This document shows positions 5,701-30,195 of a stretch of 30,195 nucleotides of DNA, piece after piece (position 1 is the stretch's first letter; each line of letters opens with the position of its first letter). The DNA comes from a virus: IMG/VR virus record IMGVR_UViG_3300045972_000788, positions 1-30,195 of that record; one strand, written 5' to 3'. Both the position numbers and the translations under genes were made by a program. The notes under the pieces are model-generated. The model worked only from the letters and a program-made list of their open reading frames with translations, was not told the origin of the DNA and did not search any database.

Positions 5701-8700
5701 GCTCGATGCCCTTGAGCGTCGCGGCATGCTGCGCACCGCCCTCACCGGCGACGGTGTCGGCCCACTTCTGCTGGCCGTCAGCCTCGGCGAACTTGCCCTT
5801 GTAGAACTTGGTCAGGCTCTCAAGCACACCGCCGACCGCGCGCGGGTCCTTGAACGGGATGATCTTGGCCAACTGCGCCTGATGCTCCGGCGACAGCTGG
5901 TCGAAGTGGTCGAACAGCGCGCGCGCCTCTTTGCCGACCGCGCGGCCGGAGACCGTGACACTCGACTCATAGGTGGAGATGCGGTTGTCGATGGCACCGC
6001 GGCCGATCTTCGTGACGGTGCCGGCGTCGAGCGAGCCTTTGGGGATCACACTGCGGCCCTGCGTGGTCGTCTGCAGATGCGCGCCGTCCAAGCCGACCTT
6101 GCGCTGCAGTTCAACGTCCTTCGTGCCAGAGGCCGCAGTGTGGATGTTCTCGTCGGCGGTCAGGTCCGTTTTGCCCGCGTCGTCTTTGATGCGCTGGGTA
6201 TTGTCAGCCGCTTCACGGCGGTCGATCTCATTGGACAGCCGCTCGCGCTGCTTCTCAAGTTCCTTCCAGTGTCCACGCGCTTCGGTGATGTCGGCAAATT
6301 CTCGGGCGGTCAGCGGCTCGCCGCCGTGCTGGCGCAGCCGAGTCTCAGGGTCGAGGCCATGCTCTTCAAATTTTGCCTGGCGCACTTCTAACTTGTTCAG
6401 GTCCCTCTTGAGCTTGCTGATGTGCTCGGGGTCGGCGTCAGGCTCGCCTTTCGAGGTGTCGCTTTTGAGTTTCTGCAGTTCGCCCCAAGTCACGTCCTTC
6501 CCGCCACGTCGAGCCACGACCGTCTCGGGGGGCACGTCGATCGCTTCAGACAGATGATCGGACACAGCGCCGATACCTTCCTTGAACGCGCGGGCGAGGC
6601 GATGCAGCCCGCCCTGCTCGTCGTAGTCGGTGTGGGGCAGTTTCTTCATCATCTCGCCCGCGACGCGCATCGCATCCAAGATGACCCCCGAACCGGTGTC
6701 GATCCGGCTCTTGGATTCATAGTGCGACGTTTTGCTGCTGTCGATGCGCATTGCGTCGATGTCCTTGAACCCGAACGCCTCGCGGCTCGGCGTGTCGCGC
6801 GCAATAACCATTCCGTGATCGTCTGGGCGACCCTTCGTCATCTCGTTGAGTTGATCGTCGGGAATTCCATGCTCCTTGGCATAGTCCTTCGCCGAGACGA
6901 AGCTGACCTCCCCGTTGGGATGTTCGCTTTGCGCCATGCGGGCGATTCGCTCGTGAGCGGTCTCGCCGTCGCCGTAGCGAGCGCGCGCTACGTCGGAGCG
7001 TTCAACAAAGTCCCCGCCCTTCTTCCCGCCCCCGTAATAAGCGTCCTCAGTCTGCTGCTCATTCTGCTTGCCGAGCGCGAACTCGTCGGCCGGAGCCGAC
7101 TCGACATGCTCGTCCGAACTCTTCGCGGTTTCCGTCCGGTCAGGCGGCGTGGTGCCGACCAGATCGGCCTCGCCTTGGGCGTGCTTGGCGAATGCCTCAT
7201 TTACGGCGTCCGCGTTCGCACCGAAGGTCTCCTTCAGCTTGTCGTTGATCTGCCCTTTCTTCACTGCCTGCTCGGCGGGCGACATATCCTTGAACGCCCG
7301 CTCACCGGTCAGGTCTTTCATCTCCTGTACGAACTGTCTGATCTGGTCGGTGCTGGTGGAGTCGATCAAGTGCTCGGGCAATGCGCTGCGCACCGCTACC
7401 GTCAGTGCGTTGTCGCTCTTCTGTACGTCCGAGATCTGCCCCAGCGCCTTGTAGAACGAGTCGACCTTCACCGGGTCTTTCGAGCCCATCGCGTCGTAGA
7501 TGCGCGTAAGCCGACTGACCGTGTCCTTGCCGAACGCATCGACCGTGGCGCGGATCGCCGAGACTGGCAACGTCCCTTTATCCTGGCCAATGTCCATCAC
7601 GTTGCGCACCAGCGTCGCGGCGTTCTTCTGGTCAGCTGGGTTCATGCTGCGGAACTCAGGCGTGTCCATGTGCTCGTAGATGCCCTTGTCCAAGCCAGAG
7701 GCGTCCTTCGAGTAACGGGTGCCAACCTCGTCCGTCTTCAGCGCGTCGAGCGCGGCGTTGGCCTCGTCGATCGACGACCGCACGCGCTTGTTCGTGAACT
7801 GCTGCGCGTTGATCTTGCTGATCTCCATCTGCCCGTTCGAGGATGTCGGGTCGAGCTGGCCCAGCGCCTCATGGAACTGGCTGGCATCAGGGTCGGCCAG
7901 CAGCTTCTGGATCGTGTTCTGCGCCTTGGTCGTGGCCTGCGCGTTGCCCTGCGTGTCTTTGGCGAGAGCCGTCTCGGGCGTGTCGCCGTGGACGATGCCG
8001 CCAGCGGCCTGGACGTGGTCCTCACCGGTGACAGGGTCAGCCTTCAAACCACTGCCGAGGTCCGACACTTTGTCGCTGAAGGTCTTCGGCGCCGGGGCCG
8101 CAGGAGGGGTCGATCCATCCAACGGCACGCCTGTAGCCCGCTCGGCATCCGTGGAACGTGCCAGCGGAGCCTCGACCGCGCCGCCTGCTTTCTTGCCGCG
8201 CATCGAGCCAGCGATACCGAGTGCAGCGAATGGAGCGCCCATCAGCGCGCCCTCCGCGGCACCGTGCAGCATCTCGCTGGTGTCGTTCGAGGCGTCGCGG
8301 TTCGGGTTCAGGTAGCCAGCCGCCTGTTGCCCGATGCCAGCGTTCGCAGCACCGGCTGCAGCGTTGCCCAGGACGGCTTCAGGGACGTTTTCAGCCACAG
8401 CCCGACCGAATGGCATGGCCACCTTGGCTGCGGCGCCCTCAGCGGCCTTGGCGAACAGCTTGCCGCCCACTACCTGCGGCACCACGCTCATTGCAGCGGC
8501 TTGGGCGGTACCGGCACCCACGCCGGTCAGCGTGCGCTTCAGCACGTCCTGCTGGGCCTGTGCGGGGTCTGCCTGCTGGGCCTGGAACTGGCCACCGATC
8601 GTAGATGGAGCCGTGGCCAAGGTCATGCCGGCGATACCCGCCAACGGCCCTTTGCCGTGCATCAGCGTGGCACCTGCCACGCCCGCTGCCAGCCCCGGCA

Positions 8701-24875: not shown

Positions 24876-25988
24876 TTATTTCGTTGCGCAGTAGACCGAC
24901 AGAACGCCGAAGTCTTCGACGGAGCCGTTCTCGTAGATCGAGCCGAACTTTGGCTTCAGGAAGCCGAGGATTTTTCCGCACGAGATACCTTGTTGGTTCT
25001 CGTAGTCGAAATTCTTCTCTTCCCACTCAGGGGCGCCGATGTCTGCCATGCCGAGCGCTTGAGCGCCGCAGAACAGGATCTGGACGCCGTCCACGGTACC
25101 GACTGCGCCGTACTTCGAGCCCGACAGAGCGCCGATGGTGTTCGGCACGTGGCGGAACTCGTGCAGGTAGATGCCGTCGATCTTGACCGAGCTGCCGGTG
25201 AACAAGGAGCTGTTCTTGTCGGCACTTTGCGAGTGACGCAAGTTCAACAGGTAGGTCGGATCAAGCTTCAGGTTCGCCATCGCCGTCGGGGTCAGGAAAG
25301 CGTGGTAAGTCTCTTCGCCGCCTTCCATCACGCCGCGTACATAGCGGTCTTTCGCAGCGGCTTTCAGCGCCACGAACATTTCCCAGGCGACGGTGTCGGT
25401 CGCGGTAACGGCGTTCGACGCAGCAGCAGGGATCAGCGCCTTGCCGGTGTTGTCCCAGCGGAAGCGACGGCCGTTCGATGGCGCGGTCACATCGGCGTTG
25501 AACTCCAGGAACGGCAGGTCGGAGCCGACGCGGGTCGAGCCGTTTGGCTTCTTGCTGTAGCTGATACCGGCCAGCGTCAGGAACGCCATCTGGTCGATAC
25601 GGTCAGCGAGCCAGTAGGACAGGACGTTTTTCGAGTTGCCGCGGAATTCGACGACAGACTTCTGGTCAGCCATACGGCCTTCGTGGCGGTTCGCATGACG
25701 CAGTTGGTCGATGCGGATCACCTGGTCGAACGTCTGCATCTGCTCTTCGTTGCCTTCGAGCGTGCGGTCGCCAGCGATACCGTCACCGGTCAAGTCGGCC
25801 AGCAGGGTGATCACGGCGCGTGCGCCCTTCTCGGATTTTTTCAGTTCGGTGATGTGCTGAACCAGTGCGCCTGGGCCGGAGCCGAGGAATTTGCCGATGA
25901 AGGACTGGTTGCGGGCGTTTTTCCACAGGTCGCGGGACCAGATGGTTTTTTGTTCGTTGGTCAGGAGACCGAAGTTTGTCAATGACAT
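24876..25988 (-). CDS. Major capsid protein, N4 gp56 / DUF4043-like (370 aa)
   Basis: Likely the main shell protein with the HK97 fold. It follows the pattern of the N4-gp56/DUF4043 capsid family: WSRDLWKNARNQSFIGKFLG near the N-terminus, HITELKKSEKGA near 45, IRIDQLRHANRHEGRMADQ near 91, LADRIDQMAFLTLAGI near 125, RFRWDNTGKAL near 172, and then YLHEFRHVPNT near 276. Its length (370) fits the family. It lies after a terminator and a 100-base leader and is followed by a probable decoration protein and a strong terminator, as expected for a highly expressed gene. The ribosome site (GGGGT) is surprisingly poor for such an abundant protein. Confidence 0.9.
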   Translation of the reverse strand: MSLTNFGLLTNEQKTIWSRDLWKNARNQSFIGKFLGSGPGALVQHITELKKSEKGARAVITLLADLTGDGIAGDRTLEGNEEQMQTFDQVIRIDQLRHANRHEGRMADQKSVVEFRGNSKNVLSYWLADRIDQMAFLTLAGISYSKKPNGSTRVGSDLPFLEFNADVTAPSNGRRFRWDNTGKALIPAAASNAVTATDTVAWEMFVALKAAAKDRYVRGVMEGGEETYHAFLTPTAMANLKLDPTYLLNLRHSQSADKNSSLFTGSSVKIDGIYLHEFRHVPNTIGALSGSKYGAVGTVDGVQILFCGAQALGMADIGAPEWEEKNFDYENQQGISCGKILGFLKPKFGSIYENGSVEDFGVLSVYCATK

Positions 25989-26103
25989 TTGGATACCCCG
26001 TAGTCGTTAGAAAAGAAATTTGCTCTTGCTCTATCGAGTATCGTTCGATCTACGAGGTGTTCTAAGGCGTGTCGTGCCTATGACGTTGAGCGGATTCTAA
26101 GAC
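25989..26103 (-). promoter_or_regulatory. Leader region of the capsid gene, promoter not resolved
   Basis: About 115 bases separate the upstream terminator from the capsid ATG. A terminator followed by a gap before a highly expressed gene implies a promoter here or read-through. I find no convincing sigma-70 -35/-10 pair. The region has a small inverted element (ATCGA and TCGAT around 26043) and the word CGATAGAG, which also occurs before the ejection-protein gene near 10992. The assignment rests on context. Confidence 0.35.
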
Positions 26104-26134
26104 AAAAAAATAGACTGCGCAAGCAGTCTATTTT
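26104..26134 (-). terminator. Rho-independent terminator after the SGNH gene
   Basis: A twelve-base-pair perfect stem (26107-26118 with 26123-26134) with a four-base loop is followed on the - strand by seven consecutive T. It lies 34 bases after the stop of the SGNH gene and upstream of the major capsid gene. Confidence 0.88.
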
Positions 26135-26167
26135 AGAGAGTAGAGATTTTGTACCGGTGTTTGGCTC

Positions 26168-26698
26168 TTATGCCGTCCGAACTGGGACGAGGATAAGCTC
26201 GGGCTGGGAGATCGAGAAGGTCGTCGTCCCCGGCGCTGTCTTTGTGATGGCCGCGCCGATCGAGATCGACAGGCTGTTTCCGCCGCCGTTCGGGATGGTG
26301 AAAGGCGCGGTCTGATACAGCACATCGAAGTTGGTAGTCACGTTCGCCGCCTCTTGGAACGTCGGCGCTAAACCCTGGCTGTTCGGCGACATATGTACAA
26401 ACCCAGACGTGCCCCCCGATACCCGCATAAAAATCCCTGCGCAGTTAGCGAGGCTGGTTGTTTTTACGCGAACCCGGACAACGACCTGCTGGGGCAGCGC
26501 GATTTTTCCTCCGTAACTGAAGTTAATCGGGATCTGGAACCCTACGCCTTGGTTCAGGGTGTACAGGTTGGCCGGGTTATTTGTGTCGATCGCGCACTGC
26601 GCCCAATTCCCCGGCGCGCCGCCACCGGCCAGAAGCGAGGTGTCGAGCGTCGACAGTGCTGCACCAGTTGCCGCGACGATGGAATAAACGGCCGTGGA
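26168..26698 (-). pseudogene. C-terminal part of the SGNH fibre/spike protein, separated by a one-base frameshift
   Basis: This frame continues the SGNH protein (26577-28202) after a shift of one base in a run of five G (26699-26703). Read from 26698 it gives 176 sensible residues that begin STAVYSIVAATGAALSTLD, continue with NPANLYTLNQGVGFQIPINF and end FSISQPELILVPVRTA. By contrast, the upstream frame becomes Arg-rich nonsense after the same point. It has no good start or ribosome site of its own; the first ATG is at 26428. With one G removed the two frames make a single 677-residue protein. It may be a sequencing error, a real mutation or a frameshift-regulated extension. Confidence 0.8.
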
Positions 26699-28202
26699 CC
26701 CCCGCCGCGCCCCAGGATTGCAGACCCGTGGGGATAGTGCCGGTGGCTGGCCCAGTCACAGTGCCTGCCGTGCCAGTCAACATCGCCGTGCCCGCCGTGT
26801 TGTACCCCACAGCAAGGTTGACGCCGGCCGGATACGTGTACGTGTCGTTGCCGTTGCTTGCCAGCCCGTTGTAATTGGCGACGTAGGAGCTTGTGGCGAG
26901 CTTGGATAACGTGCCGTTCCACAATTCATAGCCGAGCGCGCGATTCAACTCGCCTCCGCCATGCACATGCGAGCTGCCGATACTGCCGACCAGCACCGAG
27001 AAACCCGAGCCCGTACCCCCGATTGCAGCTGCGCTACAGGTGAGCGAATCCCCGACGTTATAGAGCCGCCCAACAGAGCCGCCGGACGATGCGCTGACCA
27101 CGACCGAAGTAACCGCACCGCCTGCCACCGTGATGTTCGCGTTCGCCCCAGTGCCAGAACCCCCGGTCATCGGCACGCCGTAATAGGTTCCGTTGGTGTA
27201 GAGCGACCCGGCCGTGATCGCGCCAAAACTCAGGATGCCACCAAGCCCTTGGAACAGAGGCAAGAACGGCCCGCCATTTACGGTATCCGAGGGATCGCTC
27301 ACATAGTTGGCGTAGTCGAACATTCCGAGGCGGTTCGACGCACAGTAGTTACGGACCCACTGATTGTGGATGCCGATCCACTTGTTGTTGAGCTTGTTGA
27401 AGCCGCCGAAATTCGAGTTCTTGGGGCTGATCGTGCAGAGGATCGGCGTTGTGCCAAGCGCCTTTAATTTGCCGATGAGGTTGATGAGGCTGCTCTGGAA
27501 GGAGGCCACGATGCCGGCCGTGTCAACGTCATTCGTCACGCCGGAAATATCGTTGAACCCGATCTGGACAATCGTGATGTCGGGCAGGAACGGCACGTAT
27601 AGCGCGGTCAAATTGTCCAGAATCTGCGAGACCTTGAACCCGCCCTGCGCCCAAACCGCCGTGTAGCGGATCTTCCCCATCGAGTAGGCTGCGGCCCAGT
27701 TCACGAAGTTCGTTGATCCTCCCGCTACCATCGAGGTCACTGGGTTCAAAACAGGCGCTGACAATGTCTGGACGTAGCAGTTGAACCCGGAGCCTGAGTT
27801 ACCGAGAGCGGCGTTGCTCGCGCTAAGGATGCCGCTGATCTGGTAGCCCGCGTTACCCGGCGATACGATTGCGACCGAGGTCACTGCCCCGCCAGCCACC
27901 GTGATGTTTGCCGTCGCGCCGGCGCCTGTGCCTCCCGTCAGCGGTACGTTGCTGTACGTCCCGTTCACGTATCCCGAACCCCCGACGAGGTTGGAGACCG
28001 TTGCCACGCCGCCGTAGGCCCATCCGTCCTGAACGATTGAGTCGCCCAGAATACCGACAGTCAGAGCCGATGCCCCGAACGGAATAACGCCTCCACCACC
28101 CAGCCGCAGCCCAATCTGATTGGCGTAGGGGTCGAGCCCTGGAGTAGCCAGTGGAGCTTGTGGGTCATCCCACGTACCGTCGTTATTCAAGCGTCTTGTC
28201 AT
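26577..28202 (-). CDS. SGNH/GDSL-hydrolase tail spike or fibre protein, N-terminal 501 residues valid (541 aa as read)
   Basis: Probable esterase or deacetylase acting on host surface glycans. Block I is LTVGILGDSIV with nucleophile Ser55, and block III is IVQIGFND with Asn217. A late His (His412 or His414, in SSHVHGGGELNRALGYELWN) fits the catalytic His block, but the usual Asp three residues before it is absent. A 75-residue Gly-rich repeat occurs twice (residues about 70-144 and 328-405), both placed inside the hydrolase fold. After Gly501 the frame becomes implausible; the true continuation is in another frame (26168-26698). The start has GAGG at good spacing. It lies between the scaffold and capsid genes, an unusual place for a receptor-active enzyme. 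Confidence 0.8.
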   Translation of the reverse strand: MTRRLNNDGTWDDPQAPLATPGLDPYANQIGLRLGGGGVIPFGASALTVGILGDSIVQDGWAYGGVATVSNLVGGSGYVNGTYSNVPLTGGTGAGATANITVAGGAVTSVAIVSPGNAGYQISGILSASNAALGNSGSGFNCYVQTLSAPVLNPVTSMVAGGSTNFVNWAAAYSMGKIRYTAVWAQGGFKVSQILDNLTALYVPFLPDITIVQIGFNDISGVTNDVDTAGIVASFQSSLINLIGKLKALGTTPILCTISPKNSNFGGFNKLNNKWIGIHNQWVRNYCASNRLGMFDYANYVSDPSDTVNGGPFLPLFQGLGGILSFGAITAGSLYTNGTYYGVPMTGGSGTGANANITVAGGAVTSVVVSASSGGSVGRLYNVGDSLTCSAAAIGGTGSGFSVLVGSIGSSHVHGGGELNRALGYELWNGTLSKLATSSYVANYNGLASNGNDTYTYPAGVNLAVGYNTAGTAMLTGTAGTVTGPATGTIPTGLQSWGAAGVHGRLFHRRGNWCSTVDARHLASGRWRRAGELGAVRDRHK

Positions 28203-28240
28203 TTCAGTGCCTCATCAGGGTGGGAGTACAGGGTTTGGCT

Positions 28241-29245
28241 TTACAGCGTGTCGCCACGCAGCTTGGCCAGGGATTTCTCGTCGAGCTTGGCGAACTCGTC
28301 CTGCGGCATGGCCATCGCCATTGCGCCAGTCAACACGCCGCCAGCCTCGTCGCTGTTCAGGCCGACTTTGGCGGTCGACGCTGGGGTCTTGTTGGCCGCG
28401 TCGATATTGCGCTTCAGAGTGGCCTCTTTGCGCGCTGCAGCGGCGTCTGCGGCCTTCACGACCGGTGTCACTTCAGTGGCGGTCTTCTCCTTGCCGCTCT
28501 CGGCGCCCAGGATCGTCTTGACTGCTTTCTGCAGCGCAGCGCTCGGGGTCATGCCGCGTGACTCGTAGGCAGCTTTCAGGTCCAGCACCTCGGCCACGGA
28601 CTCTTTGTCGAAGTCAGGCGAGTCCGGGTTCATCACGGTGTATGCGCTCTCGATCCGCTCCACGACCGTGTCGTAGCGCACGCGCTCATAGGCGCGGGTC
28701 TCGGCAGCTTGCGATGCCAGAGCGCTCTTTTGGTCGCCGATGGTGCGCTCCATGCGCCGGATTTCGGTCATCTTGGCCGTGGCCTTGTCGATCTCGCCGT
28801 CGGCCAGCAGCTTCGTGTATTCCGTCTCCAGGGCGACCAGTTTCACCTCGGTGGCGTCAATCGAGATACCGATTTCAGCGACCTGCGCACCTTTCTGGAA
28901 CTGTGCCAGCTGGGCGACCAGAGCTTCGCGCTCAAGGCGACCCTTTTCCAGCATCTCCTTGTGGCGCGCGAGCGGGATACGGGTGTCCTTCTTACCGGCC
29001 GGGTCTTTCGGGTCGGCTACTGCATCAGGGTCAGCTTCAGGGTCAGCATCCGGGTCGGCCTCAGCGGCTTTGTCGTCCTTGGCAGCTTTGTCGCCTTTGA
29101 TCGGATCGACGATCTCGCTGCCGTCATCGGGTGCGCCGTCGGCCAGCACGACATCGCCACGGTCTTCGGCTGCGCCGCCTTCATCGTCGATGGCGAACAT
29201 GAAGAACGGGGCGAGCAGGAATTTGAGCAGTTTTGAGTGTTTCAT
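28241..29245 (-). CDS. Capsid scaffolding/assembly-like protein (334 aa)
   Basis: Acidic, highly charged and helical. Residues about 55-85 are a repetitive Asp/Pro/Ala region (ADPDADPEADPDAVADP). From 90 to 225 it is predicted to be coiled-coil (KEMLEKGRLEREALVAQLAQF, TKLLADGEIDKATAKMTEIRRMERTI). The C-terminus is Lys/Ala-rich. These traits and the position upstream of the major capsid gene are typical of scaffolds. The N-terminal MKHSKLLKFLLAPFFMFA is oddly hydrophobic for a scaffold; the ATG at 29197 (Met17) would remove it, but AAGGG precedes the longer start. It is separated from the capsid gene by the SGNH gene. Confidence 0.75.
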   Translation of the reverse strand: MKHSKLLKFLLAPFFMFAIDDEGGAAEDRGDVVLADGAPDDGSEIVDPIKGDKAAKDDKAAEADPDADPEADPDAVADPKDPAGKKDTRIPLARHKEMLEKGRLEREALVAQLAQFQKGAQVAEIGISIDATEVKLVALETEYTKLLADGEIDKATAKMTEIRRMERTIGDQKSALASQAAETRAYERVRYDTVVERIESAYTVMNPDSPDFDKESVAEVLDLKAAYESRGMTPSAALQKAVKTILGAESGKEKTATEVTPVVKAADAAAARKEATLKRNIDAANKTPASTAKVGLNSDEAGGVLTGAMAMAMPQDEFAKLDEKSLAKLRGDTL

Positions 29246-29248
29246 GAT

Positions 29249-29590
29249 TTACAGACCCTTCATGGTTTCGATGACAGCTTTGAACAGGTAGTCCTTGACG
29301 CGCTGTTCCTGTGGCAGTTCGCTATACGCGCAGAAGCACGGATGAGTCTTGGCCTCGGCGTCTTTCACCGGGCCGTAGCGCCAGCCTTCTGCTGCCTTCT
29401 GCGCCATCCACGACTCGTGGCTCTGCTCCGGCGTGGCGTCGTTGTTCAGGTGAAAGCGGACGCCCTTCACGGCGCTATCCGTCTGCCATGCGGGGGCGTC
29501 GTCCCAGGCCGACTGCGAGTCGTCGCCGATCGCTTTACAGTAGGCACGGTTGACTTCGTGGGCGACTTGGGCAATGTCAATAACGTTCAC
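29249..29590 (-). CDS. RyR-domain protein (113 aa)
   Basis: Matches the short RyR-domain proteins of phages and bacteria: AQVAHEVNRAYCKAIGD at the N-terminus, then WDDAPAWQTDSAVKGVRFHLNND, SHESWMAQKAAEGWRYGPVKD, HPCFCAYSELPQEQRVKDYLF. In eukaryotes the domain is part of ryanodine receptors; in phages its ligand and role are unknown. The start is GTG at 29590 with AAGGAG eight bases upstream, part of the coupled junction with the preceding gene. It lies between a gp49/66-family protein and the scaffold gene. Confidence 0.85.
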   Translation of the reverse strand: MNVIDIAQVAHEVNRAYCKAIGDDSQSAWDDAPAWQTDSAVKGVRFHLNNDATPEQSHESWMAQKAAEGWRYGPVKDAEAKTHPCFCAYSELPQEQRVKDYLFKAVIETMKGL

Positions 29591-29593
29591 GGG

Positions 29594-29965
29594 TCATGCT
29601 CCTTGGTTTAGGGACTGCGCGGCGAACAGCTTCTGCTTCAGCTCATAGCCCATCAGAGGCCAGATCTTGTCGACGGCGTTCTTGCGGGCGATCATGCGGC
29701 CGATTTCAGCATCGAAGTTCTCGGGACTGGCGCAGGCACTCTCGCCGGTGACGGTGAAGCCGTTTTTCAGGACCAGTACGCAAAAAGTGAGAAGGTCCAA
29801 CGGGCCGGGGTATTTGTACCCAACGGCGATGCCGCCGACGATACCGTCGGCAGCGGTGAAGTAGTGTTCACCGGCGATGCTCGCCTCGATGTGGACCGGT
29901 GTGATGCGCGGTGCGGTCAACCCTTTGTCCTGAATCTGCTGCTCAATTTCTTTGTCGGTGGTCAT
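29594..29965 (-). CDS. Phage gp49/66-family protein (123 aa)
   Basis: Fits the Phage_gp49_66 family: ITPVHIEASIAGEHYFTA, LTFCVLVLKNGFTVTGESAC, then SPENFDAEIGRMIARKNAVDKIWPLMGYELKQKL. These proteins are widespread in phages and of unknown function. ATG 29965 is preferred over ATG 29971, since AAGGAG (29973-29978) would be only one base from 29971 but seven from 29965, in line with the other starts that use the same ribosome site. Its end carries the next gene's ribosome site. Confidence 0.85.
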   Translation of the reverse strand: MTTDKEIEQQIQDKGLTAPRITPVHIEASIAGEHYFTAADGIVGGIAVGYKYPGPLDLLTFCVLVLKNGFTVTGESACASPENFDAEIGRMIARKNAVDKIWPLMGYELKQKLFAAQSLNQGA

Positions 29966-29967
29966 GG

Positions 29968-30195
29968 TCATGCTCCTTGGGGTTGAGTTGCGGTTGTGGC
30001 TGGCTTCATCGCTGCCTTGTAAAGCCCGGTGTAGAGCGCTTCCAACGTGGAGTCGTCGAGGCATCCCAGTTCGTCAGGCAACCACTCCCAGCTCTCGCTG
30101 TGCTGGTTGCCAGTGAACCGTGCCAGGCCGACGCGCGTGGCCATGTCGGCCACCGCCATAGTCGGGAAACCGATGCCGACTATGGCGTGTATGAG
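29968..30195 (-). CDS. Hypothetical protein, C-terminal part (runs off the window)
   Basis: The frame is open to the right edge of the window, giving at least 75 residues. An in-frame ATG exists at 30159, but no ribosome site precedes it, so the gene probably begins beyond 30195. The visible part contains ESWEWLPDELGCLDDSTLEALYTGLYK and ends in a polar tail, TATQPQGA, whose codons also form the next gene's Shine-Dalgarno site. I do not recognise it. A perfect 12-bp inverted repeat (30154-30187) lies within the frame. Confidence 0.6.
   Translation of the reverse strand, partial: LIHAIVGIGFPTMAVADMATRVGLARFTGNQHSESWEWLPDELGCLDDSTLEALYTGLYKAAMKPATTATQPQGA
30154..30187. repeat. Perfect 12-bp inverted repeat
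   Basis: CGCCATAGTCGG at 30154-30165 pairs with CCGACTATGGCG at 30176-30187 around a ten-base spacer. On the - strand the hairpin contains the candidate ATG (30157-30159) of the edge gene. No T-run follows on either strand inside the window, so it is not a standard terminator. Confidence 0.7.

Follow-up and report, generated by a model that had tools for sequence, protein, structure and literature searches.

The window analysed here, a stretch of 30,195 bases from the IMG/VR record IMGVR_UViG_3300045972_000788, carries the structural region of a tailed phage on its minus strand. The major capsid protein encoded at 24876-25988 (minus strand) is 59% identical to the capsid protein of Pseudomonas phage KPP25, and a search of viral contigs returned 224 candidate stretches that encode relatives of it. 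Upstream, a conserved gene occupies the scaffold position (28241-29245, minus strand); it has a homologue in 74 of 84 loci and no Pfam or PHROG match in profile searches. Between these two genes lies a gene for an SGNH-like protein, with an intrinsic terminator on its 3' side (26107-26134, minus strand). No other large gene in the window is interrupted, and it is the frame of the SGNH gene that is the subject of this analysis.

The SGNH domain and its inserted repeats

The first open reading frame of the gene, here called frame 0, starts with the ATG at 28202 and runs to 26577 on the minus strand, encoding 541 residues that comprise the SGNH domain, two inserted repeats and, at the end, about 40 residues that are off-frame. 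The SGNH identity proposed in the initial annotation is supported by a match of this product to the GDSL/SGNH family PF13472 over residues 162-306 that falls just short of the curated cut-off (E 4e-7; 31.1 bits, against 32.9). Three of the family's sequence blocks can be located on the minus strand: block I, the Gly-Asp-Ser nucleophile motif (residues 53-55, 28038-28046); block III, GFND (residues 215-218, 27549-27560), which falls within the Pfam match; and the block V region, SSHVH (residues 410-414, 26961-26975), in which the Asp of the DxxH motif is replaced by Ser and the His is kept. The same replacement of Asp by Ser is found in two homologues, those of loci L028 and L030. Because the block V Asp is missing, we call the gene SGNH-like and regard its catalytic triad as unproven.

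The SGNH domain is interrupted by two repeats of the GSGYxNGTY type, a type that occurs in phage structural proteins, one inserted past block I and the other ahead of block V. The first (residues 73-140, 27783-27986, minus strand) corresponds to phrog_5342 and phrog_6005; the second (about residues 335-401, 27000-27200, minus strand) gave tblastn matches to cyanophage structural proteins over residues 332-401. An AlphaFold2 model built on a four-row alignment had a mean pLDDT of 35.6 and was set aside. Judging from its family, the protein would be an active virion enzyme with a putative deacetylase or esterase role on host polysaccharide, and the label of fibre or spike that it had been given is plausible but unproven. 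Among the phage polysaccharide deacetylases that offer a comparison, GDSL/SGNH enzymes are described for the Acinetobacter phage Aristophanes (PMC8471582) and for the Pectobacterium phage Possum (PMC9569702). The window gene resembles such tail spike and fibre deacetylases in its SGNH motifs and its place among structural genes but differs in that it adjoins the capsid gene, outside the tail module, and in that its activity and virion location are putative.

A change of coding frame at a run of five G

The initial annotation had reported a one-base break of frame within a G5 tract at 26699-26703, and the tract does lie there; around it the minus strand reads GCG GCG GGG GTC CAC. The shifted frame is open for 195 codons (26171-26755, minus strand), and the part of it beyond the tract encodes the remainder of a C-terminal beta-rich domain before a stop at 26170-26168; joining the two frames gives a read-through protein of 677 residues, the length that had been claimed. 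At the G+C content of this DNA, however, long spurious reading frames also occur on the opposite strand of the window, so open frames by themselves are little evidence. For this reason the break was examined by two independent tests, a codon-usage change point and a profile of the C-terminal domain made exclusively from intact homologues.

For the first test, twelve intact genes from the window served to train a codon model for the choice of frame. Before the tract, the log-probability per codon was -3.90 in frame 0 versus -4.64 and -4.65 in the other frames; after it, the shifted frame scored -3.92 versus -4.52 and -4.80. Nearly all of the posterior for the change point fell within 26681-26705 (minus strand), so that the exact base of the switch is resolved to about 25 nt. 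Over the 40 overlapping codons that follow the tract, the shifted frame was ahead by 18.8 nats; in this contig, the lead of a true frame over the frame one base later has a median of 37 nats and a 5th percentile of 15. Only 1.4% of random 25-nt intervals of the window contain a G or C run of at least five (3.3% for a run of any base), and the coincidence of the switch interval with the G5 tract, being this rare by chance, suggests a slippage event.

For the second test, eight intact proteins, all from other phages, supplied a profile of the C-terminal domain, with which all six-frame pieces of the window were searched. The highest-ranking piece was the frame-0 part (E 5e-4, model positions 10-38) and the next was the shifted-frame part (model positions 81-188), whose E of 0.06 is weak taken singly and counts because of its second rank and its collinear order. 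Furthermore, the read-through protein scored 20.3 bits against the same profile, as compared with 15.2 for the truncated form. The collinearity of the homology across the site also rules out a chimeric join of two genes.

Homologues provide the expected form of the protein. The SGNH and C-terminal domains are encoded in a single open frame in L042, L030 and L028, which are related contigs, and in the phages Cygsa01, Lullwater, Belphegor, Jojan60 and Hum25, although all of these are distant, at about 20-30% identity to the window protein. The shared C-terminal domain opens with a motif resembling NPxLTGxAGT and closes near ...TIPxGxT.... Since the intact homologues hold this domain in one frame, the break in the window splits one conserved domain. 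It had been allowed in advance that homologues might naturally end in the upstream frame; instead they continue through the site unbroken, and the upstream stop is thereby ruled out as the natural end of the protein. Viral contigs, phages, species genomes and 40 related records were searched for closer relatives of the gene, the queries being a DNA pattern, an alignment, the read-through protein and each of the two reading frames, upstream and downstream; none was found.

The family most similar in plan is phrog_6102, annotated as 'lipase', whose members include gp49 of Caulobacter phage Lullwater, XAI71123 of Pseudomonas phage Cygsa01 and gp26 of Arthrobacter phage Hum25. As in the window gene, an SGNH part is followed by the C-terminal beta-rich domain, and the family model spans both. 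The window gene matches this model in its SGNH part only (E 3.7e-9, model positions 56-196), and phrog_6102 is absent from the hmmscan list for the gene at default filters. In contrast to the family's plan of both domains in one frame, the break in the window gene divides its C-terminal domain over two frames, and the gene also carries the two GSGYxNGTY-type inserts. Taken together, the codon change point and the collinear profile matches bear out the earlier description of an upstream frame that is sound as far as the tract and of a second frame that is sound from there to the stop at 26168. The break is thus confirmed as present in the contig sequence, with homology on both sides of it.

Origin of the frame break

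The initial annotation offered four explanations for the break: a sequencing or assembly error, a loss-of-function mutation, a phase-variable switch and programmed +1 frameshifting. The first two stand, and the last two are disfavoured by the shortness of the tract, the lack of a stimulator and the off-frame character of the frame-0 tail. It is quite unlikely that +1 (or -2) ribosomal frameshifting is programmed at GGG-GTC to yield a minor long form with the C-terminal domain, even though the P-site Gly tRNA could re-pair perfectly on G5 after a +1 shift, so that the P-site codon is a slippery one, and phage structural proteins with frameshifted C-terminal domains have precedents (PMC5009743). 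The A site offers neither a stop nor a rare codon, GTC being the commonest Val codon of the contig (28 per 1000); GGG-GTC on a G5 also occurs at 6688, where it is read in frame within an intact gene of 2072 residues, and intact genes contain 24 in-frame GGG-G sites. No stimulatory RNA structure was found, folding being no better than that of shuffled sequences (z +0.3 to +1.5). The frame-0 tail, 40 codons past the tract, has off-frame codon usage, and a shift here would cut through a single conserved domain instead of appending a separate one. The homologues, all distant at about 20-30% identity, are read in one frame. The -2 route was ruled out by inspection, as the P-site Gly tRNA would need to pair with CGG. 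Known phage cases (PMC5009743) either add a separate Ig-like domain or shift at CCC with the help of a pseudoknot, or at a stop codon. The latter applies to cps and tsh, the programmed +1 frameshift genes of Listeria phage PSA, which use a stop codon or else CCC and a pseudoknot; like them, the window gene belongs to a structural region and has a C-terminal part that lies one base out of frame, but neither a pseudoknot nor a stop codon was found at its site, and the shift splits a single domain. Accordingly we infer that there is no programming at G5, and it is, if anything, still more doubtful that a few ribosomes slip +1 there to make a long SGNH esterase while most stop some 40 residues past it, so that the virion would contain two forms.

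Phase-variable homopolymer tracts are typically long, about seven or more bases. A switch operated by changes in the length of this tract would be attractive in that the homopolymer lies within a probable surface enzyme, but G5 is much below the usual length of slippage tracts, the window contains 20 G or C runs of at least five, and in the distant set of homologues (about 20-30% identity) none has a tract at the same place. We consider a switch of this kind very improbable, the least credible of the readings.

Very probably, the accessory SGNH gene lost its frame through a single, ordinary gain or loss of one base within G5 or beside it, and the tract is no device. Slippage would have produced the change at or beside G5, either during the sequencing or assembly of the metagenomic contig or during replication, in which case it would have disabled a dispensable gene. 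The 541-residue product would keep the SGNH domain, with most of the C-terminal beta-rich domain turned into about 40 nonsense residues.

The two branches of this explanation were weighed with a base rate obtained by comparing ten core proteins with the related loci, a comparison that covered 535 gene copies and about 448 kb. Four apparent frameshifts were found in core genes of related contigs, or about 0.9 per 100 kb, a rough rate because some of the loci are near-duplicates. They lie at 4271-4280 in L023, 1345-1360 in L072, about 2651-2672 in L064 and about 2733-2756 in L080. As core genes must work, most of the four are probably errors, and the rate translates into about 0.27 expected per 30 kb, so that one artefact in the window would be unremarkable. 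That the contig alone is in error and the phage gene intact has, in our estimate, close to an even chance: apparent frameshifts also hit genes that must work, namely the scaffold-position gene in L023 and L072 and the portal gene in L064, and the context of G5 is GC-rich and GGC-rich. However, only one of the 20 G or C runs of at least five is affected and the other 19 are correct; the contig shows no general proneness to error, since genes that contain runs of G6 or C6 are also unbroken; the core-gene breaks in L023 and L072 are away from long homopolymers; and an error had, by length alone, only about a 7% chance of landing in the SGNH gene.

The other branch, to which we give somewhat less than an even chance, is a real inactivating mutation, by which a cargo gene is decaying or has been switched off in the phage lineage and the 541-residue product would work only partly or not at all. 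Conservation of the genes on either side, together with the absence of a close copy of the SGNH gene from every other relative found, argues that the gene is dispensable; the relatives found hold other cargo, or none, at this place. The break, moreover, is in an accessory rather than a core gene, which favours real mutation over error, and no other gene of the window is broken. Against this, there is no sign of further decay, the coding signal and homology being sharp on both sides, so that the event would have to be very recent, and no broken large cargo gene was found in the other slots, few of which are comparable. The base rate on one side and, on the other, the location of the break in the only large gene that is dispensable, which takes up about 7% of the window, roughly cancel, leaving error and mutation about equally likely.

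A cargo slot of varying content next to the capsid gene

The SGNH gene would thus be an accessory gene of a KPP25-like phage, a predicted SGNH (GDSL-type) hydrolase carried in a variable cargo slot. The slot, the interval between the scaffold-position and capsid genes (25989-28240 in the window), is also present in the loci L005-L084, and its length in related loci ranges from 136 to 4525 nt. Its cargo varies too and includes, besides other genes, a 722-residue spike-like protein together with an SGNH gene in L042, an 899-residue protein in L028-L030, a tail-fibre-like protein in L027, a lysozyme in L073 and an HNH endonuclease in L078. An intrinsic terminator stands just ahead of the capsid gene, mostly 140-190 nt upstream, in 43 of the 67 distinct loci, and in the window the terminator at the 3' end of the SGNH gene forms the 3' border of the slot. 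KPP25-like phages have a hypervariable cargo slot between the scaffold-position gene and the capsid gene, and in many of them a terminator closes it.

Two genes of the RyR-domain and N4 gp49 types lie in the window at 29249-29590 and 29594-30064, upstream of the scaffold-position gene; the same genes lie inside the slot in L037, L041, L043 and L063. Their position outside the slot here and inside it in relatives indicates that the cassettes move.

The frameshift itself is of little importance beyond a warning for gene calling, as a gene caller would split the SGNH gene in two and lose its C-terminal domain. The cargo slot is the more general and more useful result: spikes and lysozymes are found there along with SGNH enzymes and HNH genes, and it can be mined for genes of host interaction.
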